Shown: in pieces, positions 16,920 to 36,928 of the stretch
Layout of the letters: every line of letters begins with the position of its first letter
How positions within the stretch are numbered: position 1 is the first letter of the stretch
Source: Mucilaginibacter sp. 44-25
GTDB taxonomy: Bacteria > Bacteroidota > Bacteroidia > Sphingobacteriales > Sphingobacteriaceae
Assembly (NCBI GenBank): GCA_001898335.1
Contig: MKTS01000004.1
Coordinates: 151,913 to 215,912, forward strand
Reading direction: 5' to 3'
DNA: 64,000 nucleotides
Notes under the pieces: model-generated
What the model was told of the DNA's origin: nothing
Seen by the model: only the letters and a program-made list of their open reading frames with translations
Database searches by the model: none
Position numbers and translations under genes: made by a program

Positions 16920-16951
16920 ATTGCCGGTAAAAACGGGCTTTAGTATATTTG
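16920..16951 (+). promoter_or_regulatory. Bacteroidota-type promoter for the CHC2 gene
   Basis: ATTG (16920-16923) and TATATTTG (16944-16951, an exact TAnnTTTG match) are separated by 20 nt, matching the spacing of the Bacteroidota sigma-70 consensus. The predicted start of transcription lies about 25 nt before the CHC2 start codon. Confidence 0.55.
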
Positions 16952-16982
16952 AGGCCCGATTTTTTGATAATATATTGTGAGT

Positions 16983-17240
16983 ATGAATCTGGTTGATATC
17001 GTTTCAAAGCATGTACTTTTACAACAAAGCCGTAAAGCATTAAAAGGGAGGTGCCCGTTTCACAAAGATGAAACCACCTCATTGATGGTGAATCCGTCAA
17101 GCAATGTATTTAAATGCTTTGGCTGCGGAATTGAAGGCGGCCCCATCGAGTTTTTGATGGCTCTTGAAGGTAAAAGCCGTAATGAGATCATTGCCAAACT
17201 GGCTAATAAAAATTTCCCTAAAGAGAAGGCTTCCGTGTGA
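16983..17240 (+). CDS. Solo CHC2 zinc-finger protein (DnaG N-terminal domain-like)
   Basis: 85 residues from ATG 16983; a GTG two codons upstream is also possible. The protein is essentially one primase zinc-binding domain: CPFHKDETTSLMV provides Cys and His, and FKCFGCG provides two Cys. It begins with the helix VDIVSKHVLLQQS and ends with helix EFLMALEGKSRNEII. In DnaG this module recognises template DNA, but no TOPRIM or helicase-binding part follows here. It is complete, with its own promoter and stop, so it is not a truncated primase. It may bind nucleic acid as an adaptor or regulator. Function unknown. Confidence 0.85.
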   Translation: MNLVDIVSKHVLLQQSRKALKGRCPFHKDETTSLMVNPSSNVFKCFGCGIEGGPIEFLMALEGKSRNEIIAKLANKNFPKEKASV

Positions 17241-17246
17241 TAAGCT

Positions 17247-18128: not shown

Positions 18129-18231
18129 AATGCAAATATAATTAGCTACAACTGCAAATCATTGGCTATTAATAAACGAGGGTTACTTTCCTGCTTTCAA
18201 ACAATTATCAGGATATATGATTGATATATAC

Positions 18232-18420
18232 ATGAGCAAGCAACACAAAACCATACCTACTGAGCCGGAAGAAATGCCTGTGCACATAGAAGGGCCGGAA
18301 ATTAAACAACCCACAGACCCTAATATCAGGGAGATACCTACTGAAGCGCCGGACAACCAGCCACCTGAAATTACACCTGATACGCCTAAGCCCGATGAGG
18401 GCGTTGTACACCCGGGTTAG
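18232..18420 (+). CDS. Small proline-rich acidic protein
   Basis: 62 residues from ATG 18232 (MSKQHKTIPTEPEE); an upstream ATG at 18217 would add five. It has no signal peptide or membrane helix and is dominated by Pro, Glu, Asp and Thr, with a PE/PD-rich disordered chain (ITPDTPKPDEGVVHPG). Such proteins recur in Sphingobacteriaceae as uncharacterised small proteins, but this is from memory of similar sequences. It is divergent from the GH25 gene and convergent with uxuA. No function can be assigned. Confidence 0.55.
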   Translation: MSKQHKTIPTEPEEMPVHIEGPEIKQPTDPNIREIPTEAPDNQPPEITPDTPKPDEGVVHPG

Positions 18421-18433
18421 CTAAGATATTCTG

Positions 18434-19621
18434 TTAATAATTAAAGGCTTTTTTAATGCCCAGTTCAAGCCCTCTTAATTCCGCAAGTCCACGCAAACGG
18501 CCTATGGCGGAATAGCCTGGATTGGTTTTCTTCTTGAGATCGTCGAGCATTTTATGCCCATGATCGGGCCTGAAAGGTATTTGGGTATCTTTTCTTCCTG
18601 AAGCAACCCGCTTTTGCTGTTCTTCAAGCAACGCCTTCATTACTTCATACATATCTACATCACCGGCCAGGTGGTCGGCTTCGTAAAAACTGCCCAGATT
18701 ATCTCTTTTAGTACTGCGTAAATGCACAAAATGTATGCGGTGACCAAGGTTTTTTACCATCTCCGGGAGGTTATTACCCGGAATAACGCCAAAGGAACCT
18801 GTACAAAAAGTTAAACCATTACTGTGGCTATCAACAGCATTATAAATATCACATATATCCTGCTCATTGCTTACCACTCGCGGCAAACCCAGTATATCAT
18901 AAGGAGGGTCGTCCGGATGTATGCACATCACCACCCCGGCCTGTTCTGCCGCCGGTATCACCTGCCGCAAAAAATGCGCGAGATTAGCCTTTAAGATAGT
19001 CGCGTCTATATTTTTATAGGAAGCCAGTACCGCTAAAAACTCATCGAGCGTATAGCCTTCTTCGGCACCAGGTAAGCCGGCTATGATATTTGCGGTGAGT
19101 TTTTTTTTGCCTTCAACATTGAGGGAATGGACATATTCTGCCGCAAGCTGCCGGATATGCTCCGGATAATCCTGCTCCGCGTTGGCCCGCCTGAGGATAT
19201 GCATATCAAAAGCGGCAAAATGTACCATATTGAAATGCAGGGCTGTTGAGCCATCAGGCATAGGGTAATCCAGATCGGTCCGCGTCCAATCAAGCACGGG
19301 CATAAAATTATAGCAAACGGTATGTATACCGCACTGGCCCAGGTTGATCAATGTTTGGCGGTAGTTATCAATGTAAAGCTCAAAATTGCTGCTGCGCTTT
19401 TTAATATCTTCGTGCACAGGAACGCTTTCTACCACAGACCATTTTAAACCGGCAGCTTCAATAAGCTGCTTGCGCTGCATGATCTCGTCAACAGGCCAAA
19501 CGGCGCCATTGGCAATATGGTGCAGCGCGGTAACTATGCCGGTAGCCCCTGCCTGCTTAATATCATTTAATGATACCGGGTCAGATGGCCCAAACCAGCG
19601 CCAGGTTTGTTCTAAACTCAT
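18434..19621 (-). CDS. uxuA: Mannonate dehydratase
   Basis: 395 residues from ATG 19621 ([16 protein letters not shown]). The longer ORF adds five unlikely residues. The [12 protein letters not shown] start, [18 protein letters not shown] and [10 protein letters not shown] segments are diagnostic of UxuA. It dehydrates D-mannonate to 2-keto-3-deoxygluconate in hexuronate catabolism using a divalent metal. It is transcribed divergently from mannonate oxidoreductase, KDG kinase and KDPG aldolase, so the shared 212-nt gap probably co-regulates both arms. Confidence 0.93.
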
Positions 19622-19645
19622 AAGCGTAAATAACAAAAATAATTT

Positions 19646-19661
19646 AGCATAACCTTATGCT
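19646..19661. promoter_or_regulatory. Palindromic operator candidate in hexuronate intergenic region
   Basis: AGCATAA and TTATGCT form a perfect 7-bp inverted repeat with a 2-nt spacer, 25 nt from the uxuA start. An ACCGGT palindrome follows directly. Such symmetry next to divergent hexuronate genes suggests a repressor site. No regulator gene is in the window, so the binder (GntR or LacI family) is a guess. Confidence 0.35.
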
Positions 19662-19833
19662 ACCGGTTACAAAATAAAAACCGTTGTTTTGACAAGTATT
19701 TAGCGGTATTTCAAATAAATAGTGCAAAACATGCATAATTTATTACTTTTTCAACTTGCATTGTATTACATTGCCAAGCATTTAAACCATTATCGACCTA
19801 AAATTTAACTGCAAAATATAATAAACACTCCTC

Positions 19834-20649
19834 ATGAACAACTCATTTTCGCTTGAAGGGAAAGTTATCATAGTTACCGGTGGCACCGGCATTTTAGGCA
19901 ACGCGTTTATTAACGGCATTGTTGAAGCAGGCGGTATCGTGGGTATACTTGGCCGCAATAAACAAATAGCAGATGAACGCGCTGAGGCCATCAATGCAAA
20001 AGGCGGTAAAGCCATTGCCTTGATTGCCGACGCTCTTGACGAAGCGGCACTTTTACAAGCTAAAACCCATATCTTAGATAAATATGGCCGTATTGATGGC
20101 CTGGTGAACGGTGCCGGCGGCAATATGCCCGCGGGTGTTATACAGCCTGATGAGGATATTTTTAAGATCAATATCGACGGCATGAAAAAGGTATTGGATG
20201 TAAACCTTTGGGGAACTATCCTGCCTACACAGGTATTTGGCGAAGCCATAGCGCAAACCGGCAAAGGAAGCATCGTTAACATATCATCCATGAACTCTAA
20301 ACAGGCCGTTACCAAAGTATTAGGCTATAACATGGGCAAGGCCGCCGTTGATTGTTATACCGAATGGTTCGCGGTTGAGCTGGCTAACCGTTATGGCGAT
20401 GCCATCCGTATGAATGCACTTGCTCCGGGCTTTTTCCTTACCGAGCAAAACCGCAATTTGTTGACCACACCTGATGGTGGTTACACCAGTCGCGGAGAGT
20501 CTGTGATTCGTAAAACACCATTTAAACGCTTTGGGCACCCTGACGAATTGATCGGCGCACTGGTATGGCTACTTAGCGATGCCTCGGCATTTGTAACCGG
20601 CTCCATGATATGCGTTGATGGTGGCTTTTCTATATTCAGCGGGGTTTAA
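19834..20649 (+). CDS. D-mannonate oxidoreductase, SDR type (fructuronate reductase)
   Basis: 271 residues of the classical SDR fold. The cofactor motif is TGGTGILGNAF, followed by NGAGGN. The usual catalytic Ser is in VNISSMNSK, with Y-x3-K in YNMGKAA. Bacteroidota commonly use an SDR rather than the long-chain UxuB to interconvert D-fructuronate and D-mannonate. Its position, divergent from uxuA and upstream of KDG kinase and aldolase, makes this role very likely. A gluconate 5-dehydrogenase-like activity is the alternative. Confidence 0.85.
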   Translation: MNNSFSLEGKVIIVTGGTGILGNAFINGIVEAGGIVGILGRNKQIADERAEAINAKGGKAIALIADALDEAALLQAKTHILDKYGRIDGLVNGAGGNMPAGVIQPDEDIFKINIDGMKKVLDVNLWGTILPTQVFGEAIAQTGKGSIVNISSMNSKQAVTKVLGYNMGKAAVDCYTEWFAVELANRYGDAIRMNALAPGFFLTEQNRNLLTTPDGGYTSRGESVIRKTPFKRFGHPDELIGALVWLLSDASAFVTGSMICVDGGFSIFSGV

Positions 20650-20663
20650 TTACATTAGCAGTT

Positions 20664-21683
20664 ATGGTAGGCAAGGTTTTAACGTTTGGTGAATTATTGC
20701 TTAGGTTTTGCCCCGATGCGGATAGCCATTGGCTAAATAATAATGCCATGCCGTTCCACGTTGGCGGCGCCGAACTCAACGTAGCTACCGCACTGGCCAA
20801 TTGGAAAGTACCGGTAAAATATTTTACCGCACTGCCCGACAACGGCCTCACCGAACAGTTGATCAATTATCTGTATAAAAGAAATATCGACATATCGGCT
20901 ATTGTAAAAAGCGACGGCCGTTTGGGAACTTTCTATTTAACAAAGGGTAAAGACATGAAGCACGATACCGTAATATACGACCGTGCAGAATCGTCATTTG
21001 CCAAATTAAAAACCGGCACCGTTAATTGGGACGAGGTTTTGCATGATATAAGCTGGTTTCATTTCAGCGCTATTTGCCCGGCATTAAGCCCGGAGGCTGC
21101 CGATATTTGCGAAGAAGTGCTTAAAGCTGCATCTGATAGAGCCATATTTATTTCCGTTGATCTGAACTACCGCGCAAAACTTTGGCAATATGGCAAACAA
21201 CCTGTTGAGGTGATGCCGCAGCTCGCTAAATATTGTGATCTTATCATGGGTAACATCTGGGCAGCGGAGAAATTATTGGGTATTGCCGTTTTGGGCGATA
21301 TTCATGAATCCGGACAGAAAAGTATTTATCTTAAAGAGGCCCAACGCTCATCACAAGACATTAAAAAGGCATTTCCAAAATGTAAAGTGGTAGCCAACAC
21401 CTTCCGGTTTGATGCGCAGGACGGCATTGATTATTACACAACGATATATGCGAACGATGAGTTTCATCACTCTGCTGAGTACCACGCCGGTAATGTAGTG
21501 GATAAAGTTGGCAGCGGCGATTGCTTTATGGCCGGCCTGATATATGGATTATACAATCAATTATCCTACAAGGAAACTTTAGACTTTGCTACCGCGGCGG
21601 CATTTGCAAAACTTTTTATTGAAGGCGATGCAACAACAAGTAAAGTTGATGATGTTTTAAAAACTATTCGGTATGAAAACTAA
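20664..21683 (+). CDS. kdgK: 2-keto-3-deoxygluconate kinase (PfkB family)
   Basis: 339 residues. The PfkB N-terminal motif (FHVGGAELNVATALANW) and the ATP/anion-hole motif DKVGSGDCFMAGL with catalytic Asp are present. It phosphorylates KDG to KDPG. It starts 14 nt after the SDR gene and overlaps the aldolase gene by 11 nt, fitting its step between UxuA and Eda. About 340 residues is typical for KdgK in this phylum. Confidence 0.88.
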   Translation: MVGKVLTFGELLLRFCPDADSHWLNNNAMPFHVGGAELNVATALANWKVPVKYFTALPDNGLTEQLINYLYKRNIDISAIVKSDGRLGTFYLTKGKDMKHDTVIYDRAESSFAKLKTGTVNWDEVLHDISWFHFSAICPALSPEAADICEEVLKAASDRAIFISVDLNYRAKLWQYGKQPVEVMPQLAKYCDLIMGNIWAAEKLLGIAVLGDIHESGQKSIYLKEAQRSSQDIKKAFPKCKVVANTFRFDAQDGIDYYTTIYANDEFHHSAEYHAGNVVDKVGSGDCFMAGLIYGLYNQLSYKETLDFATAAAFAKLFIEGDATTSKVDDVLKTIRYEN

Positions 21684-22335
21684 ACAGCGAATTACTGATG
21701 CCATAATTGCCCAAGGCATGCTGCCCCTTTTTTACCATGCCGATAAGGAAGTGAGTTTACACGTAACCCGAACGCTTTACAAAGCCGGCATCCGAGTAAT
21801 AGAATACACCAACCGCGGCGAGGCGGCACTCGAAAATTTTAAAGCGTTAAAACAGCTACAGCAAACCGAACTGCCCGACCTGATATTAGGTATAGGCACC
21901 ATTAAAACGCCTCAGGACTTTGATAATTACGCCTTAGCCGGCGCTGATTTTTTTATATCGCCCATAGTGGCAGAAGAAGTAGGCCATTTAGCCGTTACCA
22001 ACAACTATTTATGGATACCGGGATGTATGACACCTACAGAAATTGACAAGGCTGCCAGACATTTTGATGTATCCTTTGTAAAATTATTTCCTGCAAATGT
22101 TTTGGGACCGGGCTTTGTTTCGGCAGTAAAAGATTTGTTCCCGGCTGTTAAGATGATGCCTACAGGCGGTGTAGATATGAGCGCTGAAAACATTAACGCC
22201 TGGTTTAAGGCGGGTGTGGTAGCTGTTGGTATGGGGAGCAAGCTGATCACCTCTGATGTACTGAACGAGAAAAATTATAACCAATTATATACCAATACCC
22301 TGCTCGCTTTAGAACTGGTTAAAGGGGCGCGGTAG
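21673..22335 (+). CDS. eda: KDPG/KHG aldolase
   Basis: 220 residues forming one class I aldolase barrel. The general acid/base Glu lies in RVIEYTNRG, and the Schiff-base Lys is in VKLFPANVLG. GIGTI, ADFFISP and PGCMTPTE, plus the phosphate-binding MPTGGV, complete the active site. It splits KDPG into pyruvate and glyceraldehyde 3-phosphate, the last step of hexuronate breakdown. It overlaps kdgK by 11 nt and is followed 15 nt later by the transporter. Confidence 0.9.
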   Translation: MKTKQRITDAIIAQGMLPLFYHADKEVSLHVTRTLYKAGIRVIEYTNRGEAALENFKALKQLQQTELPDLILGIGTIKTPQDFDNYALAGADFFISPIVAEEVGHLAVTNNYLWIPGCMTPTEIDKAARHFDVSFVKLFPANVLGPGFVSAVKDLFPAVKMMPTGGVDMSAENINAWFKAGVVAVGMGSKLITSDVLNEKNYNQLYTNTLLALELVKGAR

Positions 22336-22350
22336 CGGCAACCTTACATC

Positions 22351-23646
22351 ATGAGCCAAACACAAAGAACCAACTACCGCTGGACGGTAGTTGTGCTGCT
22401 ATTTTTTGCCACCACTATTAATTATCTCGACAGGCAGGTAATAGGCTTGCTTAAACCTACCCTTGAAAAGCAATTCAACTGGTCTGAAAAAGATTTCAGC
22501 GACATCGTAATGGCCTTCCAGGCAGCGTATGCCTTAGGTTTACTGGTGTTTGGCGCATTTATAGATAAGCTGGGCACCAAGCTGGGGTACAGCCTGTCGC
22601 TTATCATCTGGAGCCTTGCTGCAATGGCCCACGCTTTGGTAAAAAGCACGTTTGGTTTTGGCGCCGTGCGGGCAGTTTTAGGAGCTGGTGAAAGCGGCAA
22701 CTTCCCGGCGGCTATTAAATCTGTTGCGGAATGGTTTCCTAAAAAAGAGCGTGCTTTTGCAACCGGGATATTTAATTCGGGAGCCAACATTGGCGCGGTT
22801 GCAGCACCTATACTGGTTCCATGGATATTAGGCATTTACGGCTGGCAAATGGCATTCATCATCACCGGCGCCATAGGGTTTATATGGTTGATATTCTGGT
22901 GGGTCTATTACGAAATACCTTCCCGCCACAAAAAAATTAACAGCGAGGAGTTAGACTATATCAATAGCGATGCTGAAGAAGAAGTAGCCGAAAGCGAACT
23001 GACTACAGAAAGGATTGCCTGGAGCCGCTTATTTACGGTAAAGCAAACATGGGCCCTGGTAGTAGGTAAGTTTTTAACAGACCCTATGTGGTACTTCTTC
23101 CTATTCTGGCTGCCTTCCTATTTTTCAAGCACCTTTAACCTCGACCTTAAAAAGCCTACGCTGCCATTGATACTCATTTACACAGCTACCACTATTGGTA
23201 GTATTGGCGGCGGCTACCTGTCATCGTGGTTTATTAAGCGGGGGATGCCGGTGTTTAAGGCTCGCAAAGCAGCCATGTTTATTTTCGCGTTTTGTGTGGT
23301 GCCTATTTTTACGGCAAGATATGCTACCAATATCTGGCAATCTGTGGCACTCATTGGTTTAGCCGCGGCTGCCCACCAGGCCTGGAGCGCTAACATTTAT
23401 ACAACGGCATCAGATATTTTTCCTAAAAAAGCCGTTAGCTCCATAATAGGTATCGCTGGCATGGCAGGTTCGGTAGGCGGTATTCTGTTCCCCTTCTTTA
23501 TCGGCTGGGTGCTTGATTCGGCTAAGGCAGCGGGTAATGTAACGGCAGGTTATAATATATTGTTTACCATTTGCGCCTGCGCGTATGTGGCAGCCTGGTT
23601 GCTGATGCATTTTCTGATGCCCAAGCGTACGGCTGTAAATTTGTGA
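22351..23646 (+). CDS. MFS hexuronate transporter (ExuT-like, ACS family)
   Basis: 431 residues with about 12 membrane helices. The first loop has NYLDRQVIGLLKPTL, the usual anion:cation symporter (ACS) family signature, and GESGNFPAAIKSVAEWFP is the family's helix 4 motif. Homologues import glucuronate or galacturonate with protons. As the last gene of the operon before a terminator, it would supply the substrate for the preceding enzymes. The exact sugar acid is not certain. Confidence 0.88.
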   Translation: MSQTQRTNYRWTVVVLLFFATTINYLDRQVIGLLKPTLEKQFNWSEKDFSDIVMAFQAAYALGLLVFGAFIDKLGTKLGYSLSLIIWSLAAMAHALVKSTFGFGAVRAVLGAGESGNFPAAIKSVAEWFPKKERAFATGIFNSGANIGAVAAPILVPWILGIYGWQMAFIITGAIGFIWLIFWWVYYEIPSRHKKINSEELDYINSDAEEEVAESELTTERIAWSRLFTVKQTWALVVGKFLTDPMWYFFLFWLPSYFSSTFNLDLKKPTLPLILIYTATTIGSIGGGYLSSWFIKRGMPVFKARKAAMFIFAFCVVPIFTARYATNIWQSVALIGLAAAAHQAWSANIYTTASDIFPKKAVSSIIGIAGMAGSVGGILFPFFIGWVLDSAKAAGNVTAGYNILFTICACAYVAAWLLMHFLMPKRTAVNL

Positions 23647-26529: not shown

Positions 26530-27933
26530 TTAGAAGATCCCCAGGAACTTTTTGCGCTTTTTCTTCTTAACCGGTGGCGCTACGGTAACCGAATCGGCCA
26601 ATACCTTTTTAGATTTCCAAACCCTCTTTTTGGCAGCAAGCAGGGCGGCGTGTTTTGCACGGGCCACACTATCGTAATTATATTGTTTGGGTATGTAAGG
26701 GGGCCGCAAATAGTTAGTGGCGGGTACATAAACCACATTACCTGTACTGGCTGGGCTTCTAAAGAAAGCGTATAATGATATAGCAACAAATATCAGCCCT
26801 AAGGTAATAATGACACCAAGCGTTTTCTTAGGCATAATAACAGTTGCCCGATTGCTCTCGTATACACCTTTATTGCCATTGAAATGCGCTCCGATTTCTT
26901 TTGCAAGTGTTTGAAGGGAGGCCAGTTGCCGGTTCTTTTCGGCATCTTCTTTTTCAAACTGCTCAACCAGTTTTCTTAAGCGTTCGTTTTCGGCAAGTAC
27001 AGCAGCGTTACCGGCTTTACTTTCGCCCGAGAAATTGGCTTCAACAACAGCATCCAGCAAGTCAACACCACTTGCATAGCGTTGCGTAGGGTTTTTTTGC
27101 AAGCATTTATCTATAATGTTTAACAACCAGCGCGGTAACTGCATTTCCTGGTCGCGCTTTTCTGCGGTCCAGGTGCGGGGCAGATTATTCTGGCGCATAA
27201 TGCGCAGGTCGGGTACCGGTGATTCCAGGTGCGCCATTCGCACGTTGTTACGGGCGGTTTCGCTATTGCCTGTAAGCGGGAATGGCACGCTGCCGGTAAG
27301 CATTTCGTATAAGATGATACCGTAAGCATACACATCAGATTGCGGTAGCATCTGGCCATCTGTTTGCTCCGGTGCCATAAATTCTATCGCCCCGGCATGC
27401 CTGATACTGGTACGGCGCTCCTCATCGGTAAGGATGGCTAAGCCAAAATCTATCAGTACATAATTACCTGTTTGGGCATAGTACTTAACGTTATTGCTTT
27501 TAACATCGCCGTGTTTGATACCTATTTTATGGCAATGGGCCAAAGCGCCTGCCAACTGGTATGCCAGCCTTATCGTTTCTTTGATGGTGAAAACACGGTC
27601 ATTAGGTGGTTGGAGCAGGTCGCACAGATCGGGACCATCAATGTACTCCATCTCAATGTATGGCAACGATCCGCTTTCGGTTATACCCGAACTTAATATC
27701 TTTACCACATTGGGATTAGGCACCTCATTTACCTTTTGCAGCTTACCCACTTCGTTAATAAAGTTGCGATAGTTGCGGTCCTCAGTGTTTTCGGCGTAAA
27801 CGGGGGTAGGCAATATCTTTACGGCGGTGATCATTGGCCCCATGCGCCGGCCTTTGTATACCGAGCCCTGCCCGCCCGTGCGTAGCGCACCCAGGTTCTC
27901 TAATCCTTCGGTTATGGTAAATACTTTACTCAT
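26530..27933 (-). CDS. Membrane-anchored Ser/Thr protein kinase (kinase 1, non-RD)
   Basis: 467 residues. Kinase domain 10-300: glycine loop TGGQGSVYKG (19-28), Lys39 in AVK, catalytic loop HGDVKSNN with Asp143 and Asn148, DFG at 162-164, APE at 187-189. The usual Arg of HRD is Gly, so it is a non-RD kinase. A coiled coil (about 310-347) links to a single helix (371-391). A basic C-terminal tail (KKKKRKKFLGIF) would lie outside, with no PASTA repeats. It overlaps the FHA gene by 8 nt. The first 35 residues nearly match kinase 2, so the two are duplicates. Likely substrates are the neighbouring FHA and SEDS-PBP proteins, by analogy with PknA/PknB. Confidence 0.92.
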   Translation of the reverse strand: MSKVFTITEGLENLGALRTGGQGSVYKGRRMGPMITAVKILPTPVYAENTEDRNYRNFINEVGKLQKVNEVPNPNVVKILSSGITESGSLPYIEMEYIDGPDLCDLLQPPNDRVFTIKETIRLAYQLAGALAHCHKIGIKHGDVKSNNVKYYAQTGNYVLIDFGLAILTDEERRTSIRHAGAIEFMAPEQTDGQMLPQSDVYAYGIILYEMLTGSVPFPLTGNSETARNNVRMAHLESPVPDLRIMRQNNLPRTWTAEKRDQEMQLPRWLLNIIDKCLQKNPTQRYASGVDLLDAVVEANFSGESKAGNAAVLAENERLRKLVEQFEKEDAEKNRQLASLQTLAKEIGAHFNGNKGVYESNRATVIMPKKTLGVIITLGLIFVAISLYAFFRSPASTGNVVYVPATNYLRPPYIPKQYNYDSVARAKHAALLAAKKRVWKSKKVLADSVTVAPPVKKKKRKKFLGIF

Positions 27934-28717
27934 GGCCTGCTGGTTGATAGCTGAACTCTAAAACTGCCGACTGCCCTAAAATGATCTGGTCGCCTTCCTG
28001 TAATTGATGACCAATGTGGGTAGAGCTTAGTTTGATCACATCCTTACTTTTTTCTGAACGGATCTTTATCTTATTTCTCGGCGGGATACCACCTTCATCC
28101 GCGTAGATATAAAATTTGCCTGCCTCATCGCTCCATTCTATGTGAGCATGCTGGCGACTCACATATTTGTTTGCCTCATCGGCTGCATCACTCGGGAAAG
28201 CTATGTGGTTGTTACGAAAGAAGCCGTCATCGGCCTGTGCCTTTTTGTCCCTGCCGATATTGATCTTATCTTTTCCGGATTGGATATGGTATTCCTTCTG
28301 TTCCGTTTCACCACCCAAAACCCTTATGTACGCCGAAGCTGATTGCTTAATAAAATTGCTGGCTGTCTTTATAAAAAACGCTGCATCAACATTTTTCGCG
28401 CGTATGGCTTCTGCCGGTAGCTCCTCATCGATTATCACCTCCAATTGCCAGTTTTGTGGCAGGTTAACTGCATAATCATCTGCAATGCGCTGTACCTCAT
28501 CTTTAAAAACTCCCGGCTCTTCGGTATGCACTGCAGCTTCGTAAAGAGATTTATCTGCCGCAGGGGCATTAATATACAGGTTGAGGCCGCGGATGTTTCC
28601 ACCCTCGCCTCCTTCTGCTTTTTGTAACTCCTGTTTAATAAATTGAAGCAGCTCGTACCGTATACCCTTAACATCAGCAGGCCGATCCGCCTTATCGTTT
28701 TTAAAAAAATTGAACAT
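27926..28717 (-). CDS. FHA-domain protein (FhaA-like)
   Basis: 263 residues. The N-terminal 120 residues form a helical/beta region that might correspond to the unknown domain preceding FHA in actinobacterial FhaA (weak resemblance only). The FHA domain covers about 130-260, with the phosphothreonine-contact residues GR at 155-156 (NIGRDKK) and SRQH at 187-190 (YVSRQHAHIEW), and ends QIILGQSAVLEF. It should bind phosphothreonine peptides, for example on the kinase encoded directly downstream with an 8-nt overlap. No membrane segment is present, so it is a cytoplasmic adaptor. Confidence 0.88.
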   Translation of the reverse strand: MFNFFKNDKADRPADVKGIRYELLQFIKQELQKAEGGEGGNIRGLNLYINAPAADKSLYEAAVHTEEPGVFKDEVQRIADDYAVNLPQNWQLEVIIDEELPAEAIRAKNVDAAFFIKTASNFIKQSASAYIRVLGGETEQKEYHIQSGKDKINIGRDKKAQADDGFFRNNHIAFPSDAADEANKYVSRQHAHIEWSDEAGKFYIYADEGGIPPRNKIKIRSEKSKDVIKLSSTHIGHQLQEGDQIILGQSAVLEFSYQPAGHE

Positions 28718-28840
28718 CCTATCCAGTAAAGTAATTTACCTAAATTTTAGTGCTTAACTGACCCTAATCTAAAAAAGTATCTCTCAAATAATTATGGCTT
28801 AATGCTGTTTATAACATCCTTAAGCCCCGCACTGGCATAC

Positions 28841-28856
28841 GGTATAGCACTATACC
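28841..28856. promoter_or_regulatory. Perfect palindrome between the two kinase operons
   Basis: GGTATAG and CTATACC flank a CA dinucleotide. The site is 14 nt downstream of the SEDS-PBP stop codon and 124 nt upstream of the FHA start. It has no T-tract and a very small loop, so an operator fits as well as a weak terminator. Confidence 0.3.
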
Positions 28857-28869
28857 ATAAACCAACGCA

Positions 28870-31800
28870 TTATTCAGTTGTTTGGTCTGTGATGCTTTTA
28901 ATGTAGCCTTTTCCCTTTAAGAACGGTATTACATGCCGCCCTGCCAACTTAACCGCGTCAGACGACCCTTTGGTTGATTCTATCCTTACGCAAACCACCA
29001 TATTACCCACTCCGTTAGCCTTGGGCGCAAAGAATACATACCAACCGTCGTTTATTTGCTCGCCTTTCCAGATACGCTCAGGTGTACCGGTTTTACCGGC
29101 AACTGCAAGGCCCAGTGTATATTGTTTTGGCGCGCTTTGCTCTATCATATAATGGCGCATCAGCCCTGCATAACGCGGATCGTTCATCAGCTTGATGCCC
29201 GGTTTCACCTGCGTTGCAGAATCGCTCACCTTAAGCACATAACGGTTTTGCGGCATGGTACCATTGTTGGCAATACCGGCGGCCATGCGTGCCACAGCGG
29301 CAGGTGTGGCAATCAGTTCGCCCTGTCCCCAGGCCATACCGGAGATACCTTTGGCCCTTGTTTTACGGATGTTGTTAGGGTTATAACGTGGCCTGGTATT
29401 GAACTCCGTTTTGCGCCAGAGCTTACGCCATTTTTCTTCTTGCTGTGCATTCTCCTTATCGCGGCCATAGTAATAACCGCCAACGCCATGTAAAAACATA
29501 CCGGTTTTTAAGTAAACGGTTGCCATATCTTCCTGCAGGTGTTCCTCGTTAGCCAGCTTGATGAAGTATACGTTGTTTGATTTGGCAACGGCACGCTCCA
29601 GCGTAATTACACCGGTTTCATCAGGCTCCAGGCCTTTAGTGCGGATACGCTCATAGCTGGCCACGTTAAACTTGCGGTTAGCTGCAGCCATACCCAGTTT
29701 ATTGAACGATGCGATGGAAGTTGCCAGTTTAGCAGTTGAACCGGGTTGCGTTGCGAGAGTAAAACCAAGATCCTGTGTGGTGATCCAGCCGGAAAGCTGA
29801 TTTTGGTCGGCATAGCTCATGGTCAGTTTTTCCCAATCATGCACAGGTGGCAGCGGATAAGTGGCCGATGTTAACACATCTCCCGTATTGGATTCCATTA
29901 CTACGACCGATACACGGTTATCCAACAAAGATGTATCCTGTGCTATCGAGTTTTGTATCTCGGTTTGCAGTTGGGCATCCATGGTGAGCCTTACATCGCG
30001 GTTCCGTTTTTTGAAGTCTTCCACTTCCTTGCTGTTTATACCTGCAAGCAATAAAGGCGCAATGGCACTGTAATCGCGCTTTACAACCGTCATTTCCTTA
30101 ACGCCTCTCGCCAGGAACCTGTCTTCCCGGTATCGGTTGGCGGTTACATTGAATTTCTCAGTCGGCATTTGGAAACCCCGCAGTTCCGCAGCGTGTTCGT
30201 ACTCCGCAAAGTAACCGTTAGGGCTACCGTTGAAAACGCCGGTATTGGCATCTCCTATCCAAAAAAACATTTTATCATCAAACGGATAATACCGGTCTAA
30301 ACGTTTGTGCATCGCCGAATCGATATTGTAATCGGCCGCACCTGCGAGGACCAACTTACGGTGTTGTTGCTTTACCAGGTTGGGATCGCTTGTTGCTAAT
30401 AACACACCATCTCGATCGTAAAGATTACCAGCCTCAAGGCGGTTCATTAATATGGCGATACGCGGGTTGTAACTGAACATCCGGGCTCCGCTTTTATCAG
30501 CCACCAGTGATGGCTTCACCACCCATTTTTTATTATTGAACGAATACCTGGATACGCTCACCGATAGCAGAACCACCCCACTTAAAGCGGCCATGAGTGC
30601 CGGCACGAGGTTCTTATCCTGCTGCTGCGAAATGTAATTCATTTGCACAGGCGTACCCCTCACCTTCGATGCTGACAGCAAAAAGCCGGAAGCCAGCAGG
30701 TTAGCCACTAATGATGAACCACCATAGCTTTCAAACGGCAATGACACGCCGGAGAGCGGTAACGCCCCTGTGGAGCCGCCTGCTATCAGCAAAAACTGCA
30801 CAAAGGTTGATATCCCTATACCCGCACATAAGTAAAACAGAAATGGTGTACCAGTTCGCCGCCCTATGATAATAGAACGGTGCAAATAAAGCAGAAAGAG
30901 GATAAAAATACAGGTCATACCCGTCCATCCGAACTCTTCACTCATCGAAGGCAGTATCATATCGGTATGTGCCTCAGGGATGGTTTTGGCAAAGCCTTCA
31001 CCGACGCCTTGCCCCGCAACGCCACCGCTGGACATGGCCCAGAGCCCGTTGGCTACCTGGTCGCCGCCATAGACCTCGTTATTCCAGGCATCCTGCCAAA
31101 TGGCCTTACGGTCTACTAAACGCTGCACCGGCCCCGGGAATAATTTGCCTAATAAAGGCACTTGGTCTATGGTAACAAACGCTGCCATAATAACCAGCAC
31201 CATAATGGCCGATTCGCTTAACGAGCGGCGGTTGAACAGCATCATCAATGAAACGGCAACCGCGGTGATGAGCGCGGCAAGCCACACATTTTTGACAAAC
31301 CAGCTTACCAGTACATACAGTACTACGGCTATCGCCATGAACATGAAATCACCGCGCGAAAAGGAAAACAAAACGATGAAAGTAAATAGTACCACCATTG
31401 CCGGCCCAAGGTCGCCCAGGATAAGGAACAGGAACAACGTTACCAATATGGCTATCAGCGCGAACGAGAAAAACTGCCAGCGTTTGTTCCAACTGGTATA
31501 TTCGCTAATGAGTTTCTCGTTAGCCGCAAAGAAACCAGCCAGGAACAAAATGATAAGATATTTCACGATCTCGCTGGGTTGGAACCCGAATAAGTTAACC
31601 TTTACACCGCTGCCCTCAGGCCCTGTACCAAACTTGATGGTAAGCGCCAGTAAGGTTGCTGCTAAAGCCACCCAGGGCCAACCGTTTGCTGCCGCGCGGT
31701 TCTGTTTAAATACCAGCATGCGGTACACCCATGAATCGGGTGTAAACCGGCGGAGGTTGAAAAACAGCATCACCAGCATGGCAACCAAACCAATGCCTAA

Positions 31801-32940
31801 ATAAAAGAGCATATCCTTAGCCAGGAAGCGGTCGCGGAGAGGATCTTGTAAGCTGAGTAAGGTAATGAATGATAACCCGGTCAAGGTCATGATCACCGGC
31901 AGGATCAGTTGATCGGCGTTTCTGAAACCTATCGACAATACTATGTGTACCAACAGAAAGGCGCCCAAAAAGCTGCCGACTATAATGTAAAACCAGTGGT
32001 TAAAATCGTCAACGGTGCGTATGGTGAGCGATTTTTCCTTTTTAAGGATATTGAAATCGCGGGTGGAGAATAAGCGTATTGTATGTGGCTGCTGGTTAAA
32101 AGTAAAAGTGGCATCGTCATCCAGTTCCTGTATCCCTTGCGATGTACCAAACTGGTATCCGGGCTGCAGGGGTAACACTTTAAACGCCTTGCCGTTTGGC
32201 AGATGCGTAAACTGCGCCACACCTTGCTCATTAGTGCGGGCATAGGCAATTAGTTCCTGCAGATGCGGCCGGCCGGCACTATCCGGTGTAAATACCCTGG
32301 TAAAACCATTGCCGTTCTCACGCGTCCGTTTAACCTCTTCTATCTCCTCATCATTGTAAATGCTATCCTGGGGCAGTACCATTTGCAGGCGTACCAACAC
32401 ACCTCCAACTGGTTGCTGTTTATTTAAGATATTTACAGCTACAACTCCACTACCCATATTGAGGTCAGTACTTTGCGGCACCTGCTTTGGGTTACTTTTC
32501 TCGCTCACAAACAACGATGAATCCGCGCCTGTGTAACCTAATAAAGCCCGTGAAGCTTCTACCCTGCTTTTGAACGACTTGCCACCCTGCGCGAATGCCT
32601 CATCGGCAACAATAAAATATTTGCGTTTGTTCAACTCACCGATGTTATCAATCTGTAAGTGATTATCAGTAGCGTTGGCAACAGTTGAGGTGATGAGGTC
32701 GATATCCTTTTTATCCTCAAAATAATAGCCTTTAGTAAGGAGGCGCTTAAGTTGGCCTGCCGGATGACCTGCGTTGAGGTTGATCATGGTGCCATCCTGC
32801 AAACGTTTATCCACATCGGTAAAACGGGTTTGCAATACAGTGTGTAGCCGCAGGAAAAGGCATACAAACAATGCCGTTAACAGTACTATGAAAATGCGCT
32901 CGGTCCATCGACCGGGTTGTTGCACTTTATCTGCTTCCAT
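28870..32940 (-). CDS. Bifunctional SEDS (RodA/FtsW) glycosyltransferase-class B PBP transpeptidase fusion
   Basis: 1356 residues. One helix (16-36) and an extracytoplasmic domain (about 37-315) precede a SEDS core (about 316-830) with FGFQPSEIVKY, SGGVAGQGVGEG and PEAHTDMILPSMSEEFGW, the last carrying the invariant Asp region. A further helix leads to a class B PBP domain with all three active-site motifs: S1068-T-A-K1071, S1121-N-N1123 and K1283-T-G. One chain could thus polymerise and crosslink peptidoglycan. SEDS and PBP2/FtsI are normally separate partners; here stoichiometry is fixed at one to one. It overlaps the PP2C gene by 14 nt. The 280-residue ectodomain is unassigned. Whether it serves elongation, division or another process is unknown. 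Confidence 0.95.
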   Translation of the reverse strand: MEADKVQQPGRWTERIFIVLLTALFVCLFLRLHTVLQTRFTDVDKRLQDGTMINLNAGHPAGQLKRLLTKGYYFEDKKDIDLITSTVANATDNHLQIDNIGELNKRKYFIVADEAFAQGGKSFKSRVEASRALLGYTGADSSLFVSEKSNPKQVPQSTDLNMGSGVVAVNILNKQQPVGGVLVRLQMVLPQDSIYNDEEIEEVKRTRENGNGFTRVFTPDSAGRPHLQELIAYARTNEQGVAQFTHLPNGKAFKVLPLQPGYQFGTSQGIQELDDDATFTFNQQPHTIRLFSTRDFNILKKEKSLTIRTVDDFNHWFYIIVGSFLGAFLLVHIVLSIGFRNADQLILPVIMTLTGLSFITLLSLQDPLRDRFLAKDMLFYLGIGLVAMLVMLFFNLRRFTPDSWVYRMLVFKQNRAAANGWPWVALAATLLALTIKFGTGPEGSGVKVNLFGFQPSEIVKYLIILFLAGFFAANEKLISEYTSWNKRWQFFSFALIAILVTLFLFLILGDLGPAMVVLFTFIVLFSFSRGDFMFMAIAVVLYVLVSWFVKNVWLAALITAVAVSLMMLFNRRSLSESAIMVLVIMAAFVTIDQVPLLGKLFPGPVQRLVDRKAIWQDAWNNEVYGGDQVANGLWAMSSGGVAGQGVGEGFAKTIPEAHTDMILPSMSEEFGWTGMTCIFILFLLYLHRSIIIGRRTGTPFLFYLCAGIGISTFVQFLLIAGGSTGALPLSGVSLPFESYGGSSLVANLLASGFLLSASKVRGTPVQMNYISQQQDKNLVPALMAALSGVVLLSVSVSRYSFNNKKWVVKPSLVADKSGARMFSYNPRIAILMNRLEAGNLYDRDGVLLATSDPNLVKQQHRKLVLAGAADYNIDSAMHKRLDRYYPFDDKMFFWIGDANTGVFNGSPNGYFAEYEHAAELRGFQMPTEKFNVTANRYREDRFLARGVKEMTVVKRDYSAIAPLLLAGINSKEVEDFKKRNRDVRLTMDAQLQTEIQNSIAQDTSLLDNRVSVVVMESNTGDVLTSATYPLPPVHDWEKLTMSYADQNQLSGWITTQDLGFTLATQPGSTAKLATSIASFNKLGMAAANRKFNVASYERIRTKGLEPDETGVITLERAVAKSNNVYFIKLANEEHLQEDMATVYLKTGMFLHGVGGYYYGRDKENAQQEEKWRKLWRKTEFNTRPRYNPNNIRKTRAKGISGMAWGQGELIATPAAVARMAAGIANNGTMPQNRYVLKVSDSATQVKPGIKLMNDPRYAGLMRHYMIEQSAPKQYTLGLAVAGKTGTPERIWKGEQINDGWYVFFAPKANGVGNMVVCVRIESTKGSSDAVKLAGRHVIPFLKGKGYIKSITDQTTE

Positions 32941-34384
32941 TTACTTTTGCGGTGGTTTTGGGTTTAGCGGTGTTAGTGTTTGTAATGATCATAGGGAAAC
33001 TCGCCGTGATGTTTTTATCCTGCGCAAACACATAGTTGTTACGCACTGGCAAACGGCAATTGCTGAACTGCACGTTGACTAACGACAAGCCATTATTGGC
33101 AAATTCAACCGCCACGTCAAAATCTTTAAACCTGAGGTTTTCAATTACAATAACCTTGGCTTTTCCACCCAAAGCCAGCGCAGGGCCATGATAGGCGGTA
33201 TCACGCTGCAAAACAAAGTTCCCTTTGGTTTTAAGGTAAAGCGTATCCTGATCGATGTGCAAAGTATCGGTTAACAATACCGGCTGCTTAAAAGCCGTAT
33301 CTGTTAAAACGAGGGTGTCTCCTTTAAAAGCATCTATAGCGTCCTGTAGTTTAACTTCGTTGCTATTGCGCAGCTTTGCCGTATCAGCAACCGGTTTTGT
33401 CACTTTTACAGCAGGCTGCCCTTTCATGAACAGCCAAACGGTACTTCCTAAAAACAACAGGCATAGCAGCCCTAATATGACGGTTAAACCGCTGTTTCCG
33501 CTTTTACGCATCTGGGGGTCGGGTTTTGTTGTAGATGGTTTTATATCTTCCTGGTTGGTTCTTTCTTTGCTTTCCTCGGGTTCTTCTTTCTTTACCTGGT
33601 TAGTTATGGGCGCAACCACCTGAGGCTGATGCCGGGGTTTATCGTTATATACCAGCACAACGGTCACGTTATCCCGACCACCGTTATTGTTAGCAGCGGC
33701 TATCAGCTCGCGTGCTTTTTCCTGTAACGAAGCGTTTAAGGTAAGTATGGATAAGATGCCTTCTTTATCAACCAGATCGGTAAGGCCATCACTGCAAAGC
33801 AACAGAAGATCTCCGGGCAGGAAAGGTGATTCACCGGTTTCAACAAAGCTATCGTCTGTTTCTATCTGGTTGCTGAAGCCTAAGGCTTTGTTTATTTCGT
33901 TACGCTTAGGGTGGTTCATGGCGGCATCTTCTGTCAAGCGTCCGCTATCCTCCAAAAAGCCAACAAAAGAGTGGTCTTTGGATATTTTGACTAAAGACTG
34001 ATCGCGCAGCAGGTATAAACGCGTATCACCTACGTGAGCGTAATAAAAGCGGTTATTCTCAATATCGGCAATGGCCATGGTGGCTACGCACGCCATGCTT
34101 TCCAGCTCTTTATCTTCCGCTTTTTTCGCGGCTATATCCCGGCTGGCTTGCTTAAAAGCTTCAATCATCCCCTCAATGATATTGGTTTGGGGCCTACTGA
34201 GCTGCTCCGTAAAAACAGTCTGCGCAATTTCGGCAGCTACCTCTCCGCCATTATATCCGCCGACACCATCAATTACGGCGGCAAGCACCAACTTGTCATG
34301 CATTATTCTGCGGGCAACAAAAGTATCTTCATTGTTGCTGCGTACCCTGCCGGTATCGGTTTGTCCAAAGTAGTTTTCAGCCAT
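32927..34384 (-). CDS. PP2C phosphatase with membrane anchor and extracytoplasmic domain
   Basis: 485 residues. The PP2C domain (1-247) keeps the metal-site motifs RSNNED (Asp20), VIDGVGG (Asp39), CSDG (Asp199) and GGRDN (Asp238). A charged linker and one helix (298-320) lead to about 165 extracytoplasmic residues with repeated short strands (DTLVLTDT, DTLYLKTKGNFVLQRDTAYHG, NGLSLVNVQFSNC), which look like a small right-handed beta-helix. The arrangement mirrors mycobacterial PstP, which reverses PknA/PknB phosphorylation, though the ectodomain is different. Start overlaps the stop of the upstream 32-residue ORF; end overlaps the SEDS-PBP gene. Confidence 0.92.
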   Translation of the reverse strand: MAENYFGQTDTGRVRSNNEDTFVARRIMHDKLVLAAVIDGVGGYNGGEVAAEIAQTVFTEQLSRPQTNIIEGMIEAFKQASRDIAAKKAEDKELESMACVATMAIADIENNRFYYAHVGDTRLYLLRDQSLVKISKDHSFVGFLEDSGRLTEDAAMNHPKRNEINKALGFSNQIETDDSFVETGESPFLPGDLLLLCSDGLTDLVDKEGILSILTLNASLQEKARELIAAANNNGGRDNVTVVLVYNDKPRHQPQVVAPITNQVKKEEPEESKERTNQEDIKPSTTKPDPQMRKSGNSGLTVILGLLCLLFLGSTVWLFMKGQPAVKVTKPVADTAKLRNSNEVKLQDAIDAFKGDTLVLTDTAFKQPVLLTDTLHIDQDTLYLKTKGNFVLQRDTAYHGPALALGGKAKVIVIENLRFKDFDVAVEFANNGLSLVNVQFSNCRLPVRNNYVFAQDKNITASFPMIITNTNTAKPKTTAKVNGSR

Positions 34385-34475
34385 TGCGTTTACCCGATCT
34401 TTTTATATCAGCAAAGTGGGTGAGCAACATTAGCCCGCCAATTACCAATAAGCCTATAGATAATATTTGTGACAT
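34377..34475 (-). CDS. 32-residue single-helix membrane protein
   Basis: ATG at 34475 lies 3 nt after the stop of the FHA-like gene, and its TGA overlaps the PP2C start by 8 nt (ATGGCTGA). The peptide is MSQILSIGLLVIGGLMLL then THFADIKRSGKRNG: one hydrophobic helix with Gly residues and a positively charged tail, predicted N-out C-in. The tight packing between two genes of the operon strongly suggests that it is translated. It may be a structural partner or regulator of the phosphatase or of the SEDS-PBP. No family is recognised. Confidence 0.6.
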   Translation of the reverse strand: MSQILSIGLLVIGGLMLLTHFADIKRSGKRNG

Positions 34476-34478
34476 TAA

Positions 34479-35441
34479 TTATGCTTTAAACAGGTTTAAA
34501 CCTATAATACCGTTAAGCAGCATGCGCGAGTTTACAGGCAATTCCACCCATTTAGGCGAGTTGATATCGCTGCGCTCTAATTTAACTTCGTTCAATGTGG
34601 TCATCTCACCGAAAGATGCCAGATAGAATTTACCATCAGAACGGTTATACTTGATCTGCAAATGCGGCGCGTTAACCCAATCTGAAGGTATGGTAAATAT
34701 GTTGGAATCTTCGCGCGTTTCCTCACTGCCTGATACGATGATCTCATCGTCTTTCATCAGGTACTCCACCTTTTTACCGGCAAACTGCTGGTCGGGAATG
34801 ATGGTTTCCAGTTTGGCAAGGCTATCTTTTGGCGGCTTTGCAGATGCTTTTTTCTCTTCTTCCGCAGCCTGCAGATTATCTTCGTAAGGTATCTCGAAAT
34901 ACCCTTCGCTGTAATAGTTAAAGCCCTTTAATACATCCTGGCTCACATCAAAAGTTTGCGCGATACCGGTTTGGCGCGGTATAAAGGTTACCCGCAGATT
35001 CTGCTCTTTTAGTGGTTCATTATTATCAGGTAATAACTTACCGATAAAACCTTTATCACCACGGGCATAATCCGGGTGCGACACCAGCCTGAAAACCCAT
35101 TTAGAACCGGATGGTTTAACCGTTTTGCCGGCATCCCGATACTCTTTCAGTATCTCGTAAAACTTCTCTACCGTTTCCTGAACGATCAAGCCGAAGATGC
35201 CCTGCTTATCGGCGATGAATTCCTTGTAATCATCCGGGTTAAAGCTGATGATGAATTCATGATAGAAAACCACCCTATCGGCAAACGATAATTGCTTGAT
35301 AGATTCCCTGAATTTTTCGACGATGTAACTGTAAACAGTATCAGGTGTAAGGGCGTTTGCTTTAGCCTTTTCGGTAGTTTCGTTAGTGAGAAACCAATCC
35401 TGTAAACCAATGCGTTGCCAAAAATTAGGTGTAGATGCCAT
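34479..35441 (-). CDS. Protein with a divergent FHA-like C-terminal domain
   Basis: 320 residues without membrane helices. The N-terminal part (1-120) is helical with WQRIGLQDWF at the start. Residues 190-210 are a charged linker (AAEEEKKASAKPPK). The C-terminal 225-320 follows the strand order of an FHA domain: DDEIIVSGSEE, NIFTIPSDWVNAPHLQIKYN, KFYLASFGEMTTLNEV, RMLLNGIIGLNLF. His260 could match the conserved FHA His, but the Gly-Arg and Ser of the phosphothreonine site are missing. It lies between kinase 2 and the PP2C, so an adaptor role is plausible. The FHA call is inference from pattern only. Confidence 0.6.
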   Translation of the reverse strand: MASTPNFWQRIGLQDWFLTNETTEKAKANALTPDTVYSYIVEKFRESIKQLSFADRVVFYHEFIISFNPDDYKEFIADKQGIFGLIVQETVEKFYEILKEYRDAGKTVKPSGSKWVFRLVSHPDYARGDKGFIGKLLPDNNEPLKEQNLRVTFIPRQTGIAQTFDVSQDVLKGFNYYSEGYFEIPYEDNLQAAEEEKKASAKPPKDSLAKLETIIPDQQFAGKKVEYLMKDDEIIVSGSEETREDSNIFTIPSDWVNAPHLQIKYNRSDGKFYLASFGEMTTLNEVKLERSDINSPKWVELPVNSRMLLNGIIGLNLFKA

Positions 35442-35551
35442 CGGGTAAATTCAAAAGTTAAAATCCAAAAGTCAAAAGCAAGTCTTTGAAAACCTTGCCA
35501 ACCTTAAATGTTTGTGGTAGTCTCATTGAACACATTTAGCTAACAGATGTT

Positions 35552-36928
35552 TTATTGTTCCTGCCGCGCACCAGTAGTGTCCGGCTGCTGATTGTTAATG
35601 CTATCTTGTACCGGCCTTTGCGGCTCTACCACAGGCTTCTTTACAACCGGCGTATCACGCTTAACAGGCATACTATCTGCCTGGCTATTCTGATCTTGCG
35701 GATATTTTGAGCCGTAGTTAACTCCGGTAGTATCAGGTTTGTTTTGTAAACTATCCTGATTTACCTGTTTATCCTGCCCGTGCTTTTTAAGGAAAGTGGC
35801 GTAAACCGAGAAGCCCATAAACAGTACCAGCAGCACCATTATGGTATAGTAATAAGGCTTGGAAAGCGACACGCGCGATTCATCCTCAACAGGCTCTGTT
35901 TGAGCAGGCTCCGGCGGCGGGCCGCTTTGCTGATACTGTAGCAACAGGTTATGTAAACGCTCGTTCTCGCTGCGCAGGGCCGCATTGCTTAACCCCCCGT
36001 TAAAATCATGACTGTCGGCCGCAGCCATGCTACCGCGCACGATGGCATCATGCAATTCGGTGCCGTTCCTGAACCGTTTATCAGGATCTTTTTGCAGGCA
36101 CTTATCAATAATTTTTAAAAACCATTGTGGCACCTGCATTTCCTGCGCTTTCTTTTCATCGCTCCACGATGCAGGCAAAGCAGCGCGACGGGCGTTAAGC
36201 AGATCTGGCACCGGCGACTCGATGTGTGCCAGCATTACCTGGTTGCGGGCGCTGTCACCGTGTCCTTTTAATGGGAAAGGCACTTCACCGGTTAGTAATT
36301 CGTAAAGGATAATACCATAGCTGTAAATATCGGTTTCCTGCAGCATTTTACCTTCGTGCTGTTCCGGAGCCATAAACTCTACTGCACCCGCATGCCTTAT
36401 GCTTGTACGGCGCTGCTCTTCCGTCATCACGGCAAGGCCAAAATCCAGAAGTACATAGTTGCCGGTATGTACGTTATATTTTACGTTATTGCTTTTAACA
36501 TCGCCATGCTTTACACCTACCTTATGGCAGTGCGCAAGCGCGCTGGAAAGCTGGTCGGCCACGCGGATGGCCTCCTTAAGCATAAATATTTTTTCATGGG
36601 GCTCTTTTAACAGCTCGCAAAGGTCAGGGCCTTCAATGTATTCCATTTCAATGAACGGGAAAGAGCCACTATCGGTAAGCCCCCAGCTCAATATTTTCAC
36701 CACATTAGGGTTAGGCTCCTCGTTTACCTTTTGCAGTTTAGTAACCTCGTTTTTAAAATTGCGGTAGTTACGGTCGTCATCGCTTTCGTTGAGTATAGGG
36801 GTGGGCATCAGCTTAATAGCGGTAAGCACCGGCCCCATACGGCGCCCTTTATAAACGGAACCCTGCCCGCCGGTGCTCATGGCACCTAAATTTTCAAGTC
36901 CTTCGGTTATAGTAAAAACTTTGCTCAT
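35552..36928 (-). CDS. Membrane-anchored Ser/Thr protein kinase (kinase 2, non-RD)
   Basis: 458 residues, a paralogue of kinase 1 with the same architecture: glycine loop TGGQGSVYKG, Lys39 in AIK, HGDVKSNN catalytic loop with Gly instead of the RD arginine, LDFGLA and MAPEQ. A short coiled coil (RSENERLHNLLLQYQ) and a single helix (MVLLVLFMGFSVYATFL) follow. The roughly 75-residue external tail is Pro/Gln/Asp-rich and disordered, unlike the basic tail of kinase 1. It is the first gene of the operon leading to the FHA-like protein (110 nt gap), small membrane protein, PP2C and SEDS-PBP fusion. It may be the primary kinase of the module. Confidence 0.92.
   Translation of the reverse strand: MSKVFTITEGLENLGAMSTGGQGSVYKGRRMGPVLTAIKLMPTPILNESDDDRNYRNFKNEVTKLQKVNEEPNPNVVKILSWGLTDSGSFPFIEMEYIEGPDLCELLKEPHEKIFMLKEAIRVADQLSSALAHCHKVGVKHGDVKSNNVKYNVHTGNYVLLDFGLAVMTEEQRRTSIRHAGAVEFMAPEQHEGKMLQETDIYSYGIILYELLTGEVPFPLKGHGDSARNQVMLAHIESPVPDLLNARRAALPASWSDEKKAQEMQVPQWFLKIIDKCLQKDPDKRFRNGTELHDAIVRGSMAAADSHDFNGGLSNAALRSENERLHNLLLQYQQSGPPPEPAQTEPVEDESRVSLSKPYYYTIMVLLVLFMGFSVYATFLKKHGQDKQVNQDSLQNKPDTTGVNYGSKYPQDQNSQADSMPVKRDTPVVKKPVVEPQRPVQDSINNQQPDTTGARQEQ

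Follow-up and report, generated by a model that had tools for sequence, protein, structure and literature searches.

A putative phosphorylation-controlled peptidoglycan synthase module in Bacteroidota with probable kinship to the Gram-positive fhaA-pknB cluster

Control of cell wall growth by Ser/Thr kinases is best known from Gram-positive bacteria. Here, we describe a candidate counterpart in a Gram-negative lineage: seven open reading frames (ORFs) on the minus strand at positions 26530-36928 of a 64,000-nucleotide stretch (hereafter, the window) of Mucilaginibacter sp. 44-25 (Bacteroidota; assembly GCA_001898335.1, contig MKTS01000004.1, positions 151,913 to 215,912). We propose, with a probability of roughly 0.6, that these genes constitute an accessory, self-contained peptidoglycan synthase module under phosphorylation control, which would share ancestry with the Gram-positive fhaA-pknB cluster and in which the counterparts of RodA and PbpA appear to be fused. 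The computed support comes from the genes present, their catalytic motifs, how well they are conserved and how they co-occur, the grouping of the SEDS domain, and the FHA fold of a structure model; from these we infer a mechanism.

In transcription order, the module encodes kinase K1, the FhaA-like protein (FHL), a small membrane peptide (MP), a PP2C phosphatase, a fusion of SEDS and a class B penicillin-binding protein (the SEDS-bPBP fusion), an FHA protein, and kinase K2. Lengths are in amino acids (aa) and TM denotes a transmembrane segment:

35552..36928, minus strand: K1, membrane Ser/Thr kinase, 458 aa (Pfam Pkinase)
34479..35441, minus strand: FHL, FhaA-like protein, 320 aa (structure models and fold matches)
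34377..34475, minus strand: MP, single-TM peptide of 32 residues, TM at about 4-22, in the place of actinobacterial fhaB
32927..34384, minus strand: PP2C phosphatase, PstP/Stp1-like, 485 aa, one TM at about 302-320, conserved outside domain at 322-455 (Pfam PP2C)
28870..32940, minus strand: SEDS-bPBP fusion, 1356 aa (Pfam PF01098 and PF00905)
27926..28717, minus strand: FHA protein, 263 aa (Pfam FHA)
26530..27933, minus strand: K2, second membrane Ser/Thr kinase of 467 aa, with a non-RD loop and 57% identity with K1 (Pfam Pkinase)

A first-pass annotation of this DNA had described seven genes on one strand with 3 overlaps. Our coordinates agree with it, ORFs and Pfam matches bear it out, and the overlaps fall at 34377-34384 (8 nucleotides), 32927-32940 (14 nucleotides), and 27926-27933 (8 nucleotides). 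Its further claims also held: the kinases are paralogous, given the identity of K1 and K2; they are free of PASTA repeats in Pfam and NCBIfam; the FHL is FHA-like by its model and by homologues above the Pfam cut-off; and SEDS and PBP domains lie on a single polypeptide.

Central to the module is the fusion. Its N-terminal portion comprises a TM (18-36), an outside N-domain (38-312), and the SEDS region (about 340-765); the PBP portion follows with a second TM (778-796), a pedestal (about 797-970), and the transpeptidase (about 975-1335). Across 39 aligned rows, the SEDS motif H658-T-D660, which aligns with the HTD of Escherichia coli MrdB, is invariant, as are the PBP motifs S1068-T-A-K1071 and S1121-N-N; the third PBP motif, K1283-T/S-G1285, carries T in 35 rows and S in 4. 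With PF01098 and HTD in one half and the SxxK, SxN, and KTG motifs in the other, the protein is predicted from its sequence to be both a SEDS protein and a class B PBP. The outside N-domain shares 57% mean identity with the window across relatives. In three rows of the Spirosoma type, a carboxypeptidase-regulatory-like domain (PF13620) matches it below the cut-off, with an E-value of 5.5e-6 at best; one Chitinophagales row gives a weak PF13620 match (0.006), and the N-domain of the window gives none.

Single-chain enzymes of this kind have precedents. PMC10449877 states that an engineered E. coli RodA-PBP2 single chain works and that natural single-ORF SEDS-PBP examples exist, reference 18 there being the Rhodococcus RHA1 genome. 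The cited Rhodococcus fusion is alike in combining both activities in one ORF and differs in being actinobacterial. All six fusion-bearing genomes examined hold two further SEDS proteins, grouping as FtsW and RodA, together with PBPs grouping as FtsI and PBP2. Since these proteins are retained, the fusion is a third, accessory SEDS-bPBP pair in the six genomes. The FtsW-FtsI and RodA-PBP2 pairs belong to the same enzyme families as the fusion, but are encoded by separate genes and occupy another position in the SEDS tree.

The gene neighborhoods of the fusion were surveyed along a line proposed in the first-pass annotation. A scan of named genomes, from which the best 80 of 91 fusion relatives were kept, gave 79 distinct loci in Mucilaginibacter, Pedobacter, Daejeonella, Paradesertivirga, other Sphingobacteriaceae, and Chitinophagaceae-type genomes; the fusions of M. 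achroorhodeus and Mucilaginibacter sp. MD40 share 97-98% identity with that of the window. The core recurs around these loci, with FHL found at 76, MP at 75, PP2C at 78, the FHA protein at 77, and at least one kinase at 77; several absent components reflect loci cut at contig ends. Of the 79 loci, 74 have the full run FHL-MP-PP2C-fusion-FHA, two of these (L046 and L051) with a broken or split frame, and two Spirosoma-type genomes display a rearranged order, FHL-PP2C-K-K-fusion-FHA. The number of kinases varies: none in 2 loci, one in 28, two in 45, and three in 4. Of 78 loci, 73 have PP2C and fusion within 30 nucleotides of each other, taking longest-ORF starts. The reference lists of 73-74 entries exclude five loci that are partial or duplicates (L027, L041, L046, L064, and L084), and the five alignments made from these lists hold 63, 62, 35, 39, and 63 rows, window included.

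Kinases and fusion travel together. Of 151 genomes sampled from the family, 25 have the fusion and 51 a Pkinase match (E ≤ 1e-10). A kinase lies within 12 kb of the fusion in every one of the 25 fusion-bearing genomes; these genomes have 58 kinase matches, of which 42 sit within this distance; any kinase at all is found in 26 of the 126 genomes that lack the fusion (Fisher p ~1e-14, relatedness ignored). The independent distribution of components, which the first-pass annotation had named as grounds for rejecting a functional unit, is therefore not seen. This association is also pertinent to a second reading of the locus: a general kinase signaling module, where the synthase is one of many outputs and the fusion is a passenger. 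Across the 4.17 Mb genome, the two Pkinase matches, the single FHA match, and the single PP2C_2 match in Pfam (E ≤ 0.001) all fall within the module locus, which speaks for this reading, and PMC6554272 reports that mycobacterial PstP affects global phosphorylation. Set against the kinase near the fusion in all 25 genomes and the tight PP2C-fusion spacing, we find this reading unlikely.

The signaling components are recognizable to different degrees. The two kinases match Pkinase with E-values of 5e-38 and 5e-36. K1 consists of a kinase domain (about 17-286), one TM (about 362-380), and a low-complexity outside tail. Its catalytic loop, HGDVK, is non-RD, and HGD replaces HRD in 129 of 129 copies of the cassette kinases; a DFG string is present in 120 of these copies and DLG in 9. 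The outside tails, of about 80 residues, share 16% mean identity with the K1 of the window (K1 and K2 copies pooled). In the module kinases, PASTA has zero Pfam domain matches, and the NCBIfam PASTA-kinase model scores 156 and 152 bits versus a cut-off of 450. In one locus of the Spirosoma type (L105), both module kinases have HRD, unlike the 129 cassette kinases.

The closest solved chains to the PP2C are 1txo and 2cm1, the latter named PstP, and the NCBIfam model for Stp1/IreP-type PP2Cs (NF033484) gives 210.7 bits, under its cut-off of 230. The outside part of the phosphatase shares 43% mean identity with the window across relatives; it has zero Pfam matches in five homologues and looks beta-rich by eye. 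The FHA protein (P0002) comprises an N-domain (1-127) and an FHA domain (about 153-248) that reaches 24.5 bits in Pfam versus a cut-off of 20.7; two Spirosoma-type homologues score 16.7 and 19.4 bits, under the same cut-off. Positions G155 R156, S187 R188 x H190, and N215 are invariant in 62 rows; GR and SRxH are the usual positions by which FHA domains bind phosphothreonine (pThr). A profile of the N-domain of this protein finds zero match to FhaA_N or to the N-domain of FHL.

FHL is more divergent. Structure models assign residues 28-140 to an FhaA-N-like domain and residues 205-320 to an FHA fold (Z 14.5 over 101 residues at 1.9 A). Pfam FHA has zero match in the FHL of the window (P0006), and two Spirosoma-type homologues exceed the cut-off with 22.2 and 22.0 bits. 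Modeled alone, the N-domain has a pLDDT of 83.6 and a pTM of 0.81. Its top Foldseek match among 350,542 chains is 2lc0, the N-domain of FhaA (Rv0020c), with probability 0.85 and E 0.11, and the same chain is the top match in VIA (Z 6.4, 99 residues aligned, 3.3 A); 2lc0 had been named as the target ahead of the fold search.

For MP, differences from the window by codon position are 375, 210, and 571 (47 copies, 99 nucleotides, codons 2-25). Judged by this pattern, the peptide behaves as a gene. A short TM peptide is also discernible by eye between FHL and PP2C in the Spirosoma-type version, where the profile match is weak (E 0.13). MP resembles FhaB in its position and its TM, the N-terminus of FhaB being a single TM as well, yet it stops at 32 residues and so does not combine an N-terminal TM with an FHA domain.

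A module with non-RD kinases in all 129 copies and an FHL without the usual pThr residues could be taken for a degenerate or inactive remnant. The motif residues of SEDS, PBP, and FHA are nevertheless kept across the aligned rows, all folded domains are conserved, and every one of the 129 kinases retains a DFG or DLG string; of the explanations considered, a remnant is the least probable.

The first-pass annotation had held that the gene content mirrors the actinobacterial fhaA-fhaB-pstP-rodA-pbpA-pknA-pknB cluster. Both gene content and order sustain this comparison. As yardsticks, we used actinobacterial records from Nonomuraea (L119), Tsukamurella (L121), Nocardia (L122), Arthrobacter (L123), and Actinomyces (L124), all five of which gave the classical order, with some Arthrobacter frames split. 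The core FHL-MP-PP2C-SEDS.PBP is colinear with fhaA-fhaB-pstP-rodA-pbpA, with MP at the place of FhaB. In 22 of the 79 loci, kinases stand solely downstream of the core run, and in nine loci without a front kinase (L077, L079, and others) the order FHA-K-K follows the core, as pknA-pknB does. The two systems share a putative FhaA-type protein, a single-TM element, a one-TM PP2C, a SEDS protein, a class B PBP, and a linked membrane kinase. The module differs in its fused SEDS-PBP with an extra outside N-domain, its PASTA-free and non-RD kinases, the TM peptide in place of FhaB, the additional FHA protein past the fusion, the frequent front kinase, and its accessory nature.

The SEDS domain provides the phylogenetic evidence. 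Trees of SEDS and PBP included 11 fusion rows only; the Arthrobacter RodA was excluded for its split frame, and only the last 485 residues of the Nocardia RodA were used. In the SEDS tree of 39 rows, one side of a branch with 99/97 support comprises the 11 fusion rows together with four RodA rows from actinobacterial kinase clusters and a SEDS protein of the clostridial genus Monoglobus, apart from host FtsW and RodA. On this set, the approximately unbiased (AU) test rejects the fusion with host RodA (p 0.0037) and with host FtsW (p 0.018), and the grouping survives four leave-outs with support of 95-97. A second set, which gains two actinobacterial FtsW and the Monoglobus RodA, loses five long-branch rows, and numbers 40 rows, gives 100/96 and an AU p of 0.0009 against host RodA. 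In the Monoglobus triplet (L120, 8933-11918), an FHA gene adjoins a SEDS-PBP pair whose SEDS protein falls in the same group. It differs from the module in that the proteins are separate, and kinase and PP2C are neither annotated nor clearly matched in the 22 kb examined.

Several results weigh against the proposed explanation. The fusion with the actinobacterial rows alone has an AU p of 0.071, and with Monoglobus alone 0.074, so that neither arrangement is favored or rejected; because the midpoint root falls on the branch that separates this group, and long branches are involved, the SEDS group is a well supported split and not a proven clade. The transpeptidase domain sits on a very long branch (2.77), the PBP tree leaves its grouping with PbpA unsettled, and grouping with host PBP2 or FtsI goes unrejected (AU p 0.19 and 0.16). 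Against the window-type kinase profile, kinases of the Spirosoma version score 81-97 bits, Nonomuraea PknB 97, and PknA 58; kinases of the Spirosoma version are thus no nearer to this profile than actinobacterial PknB, and the kinases appear uninformative on kinship. Among solved PP2Cs, PstP leads the others by 2 bits only, and tblastn scores of actinobacterial, Paenibacillus, and Rhizobium phosphatases are alike at 102-105 bits, such that PP2C comparisons say little about origin. The 2lc0 match is weak alone: no Foldseek match to the FHL N-domain reaches E 0.001, and the next VIA row is an unrelated encapsulin (Z 5.9), tied with 2lc0 by the rule of the tool. The FhaA_N model (PF12401) is silent in Pfam on FHL, and a profile comparison of the FHL N-domain with FhaA_N gives a probability of 4.9% (P 0.008). 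By eye, FHL is without the GR and SRxH positions, which are partly kept in the Spirosoma-type FHL. Finally, a kinase precedes FHL in 53 of 79 loci, including the window, unlike in actinobacteria.

A rival reading is convergent assembly, whereby Bacteroidota would have placed a host SEDS and a host PBP into a kinase-FHA-PP2C locus independently. It would be compatible with a PBP domain that the tree does not place, kinases that look exchangeable, PP2Cs in other settings that are no less similar to the module PP2C than PstP is, and a SEDS group that is a split with an unsettled root position. Its difficulty lies in the rejection of host RodA and FtsW as partners of the fusion SEDS, the putative FhaA-type domain pair in FHL with its top fold match, and the core order colinear with the actinobacterial cluster. 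The first-pass annotation had offered convergence and transfer as alternatives. Convergence is disfavored because of the SEDS phylogeny, the fold match of the FhaA N-domain, and the colinear core, and we regard it as improbable. The trees do not demonstrate recent transfer from an extant actinobacterial lineage, as the fusion SEDS rows adjoin the actinobacterial RodA rows without being nested within them and have a long branch; accordingly, we name neither donor nor ancestor. The comparison of each component with its actinobacterial counterpart, also envisaged there, thus points to kinship for SEDS, which groups with kinase-cluster RodA, and says little for the PBP domain, the kinases, and the PP2C.

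In our preferred reading, that of a kinase-controlled synthase module related to the fhaA-pknB cluster, the membrane kinases would phosphorylate both their own threonines and those in the cytoplasmic parts of module proteins, with the fusion as a probable target. The FHA protein, with its invariant pThr-type residues, would dock on these phosphorylated threonines. FHL, as an FhaA-like protein with a degenerate pThr site, may scaffold the complex at the membrane together with MP, and the PP2C would reset the phosphorylation state. The output would be on/off control of a fused polymerase-crosslinker, which may build wall in a condition-specific manner alongside the general FtsW-FtsI and RodA-PBP2 machines. 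The kinase tails are short and vary widely among relatives, while the outside domains of the PP2C and the fusion are conserved, so these domains are the probable site of sensing. More tentatively, the module might represent an optional third wall machine of some Bacteroidota, carried in at least one case on a plasmid and sharing an ancestor with the Gram-positive PknB cluster, where sensing has moved from PASTA repeats to the outside domains of phosphatase and synthase, and these domains read wall damage or composition.

Searches of open-licence PMC papers gave no description of such a module in Bacteroidota among the matches listed, and the FhaA papers among these matches do not mention Bacteroidetes. 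PMC6554272 assigns the pknB-fhaA cluster to Actinobacteria and to some Firmicutes, and reports that knockdown of the pstP operon halts growth in M. smegmatis. What is new here is the lineage in which the module occurs, the fused synthase, kinases that lack PASTA, an accessory character with at least one plasmid location, and the confinement of Pkinase, PP2C_2, and FHA matches to a single locus. A Gram-negative module that occupies one locus and is not universal in its genus would make the whole pathway, and each of its parts, deletable in a soil bacterium. In addition, the natural single-chain polymerase-crosslinker is a ready structural subject.

The distribution of the module is patchy and accessory. 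FHL occurs in 9 genomes of a 395-genome phylum sample, and the fusion (E ≤ 1e-60) in 10 of a 395-genome class sample. In Mucilaginibacter, the genus of the window, 13 of 19 rows among the matches listed hold the fusion; the genus therefore does not require it. Patchiness and one plasmid location would also fit an anti-phage or other mobile defense locus, and the kinases do match kinase models in PADLOC, such as PD-T4-6 and mad6. These matches cover the kinase domain and are judged generic, the fusion, FHA protein, and FHL are unmatched in PADLOC at E 0.001, the PP2C has one weak match (2e-7), and the conserved core is a wall synthase; a defense locus built around a kinase core is thus very improbable.

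The plasmid-borne copy (L118) is a divergent, rearranged module at 12432-22988 of the 136.7 kb Spirosoma oryzicola plasmid NZ_CP089545.1, with a two-component system after it and a curli-type gene set further along. In the window, the module neighbors a ThuA-like protein and a luciferase-like oxidoreductase. An Rfam search of the window has zero matches, and a Bacteroidota-type promoter pattern matches 3 times in the window versus 3.3 expected, with none in or adjoining the cassette. In a FastTree phylogeny of the fusion, Pedobacter rows appear at three separate positions, and at two of these they lie among Mucilaginibacter rows; this topology, of the fusion alone, suggests that the module has moved between members of the family. 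In Pedobacter panaciterrae O48, one contig carries 24 kb with the module twice (L044 and L046), 99.97% identical and in opposite orientation. The repeat may stem from genuine duplication or from misassembly, and one of the two copies has a broken FHL frame.

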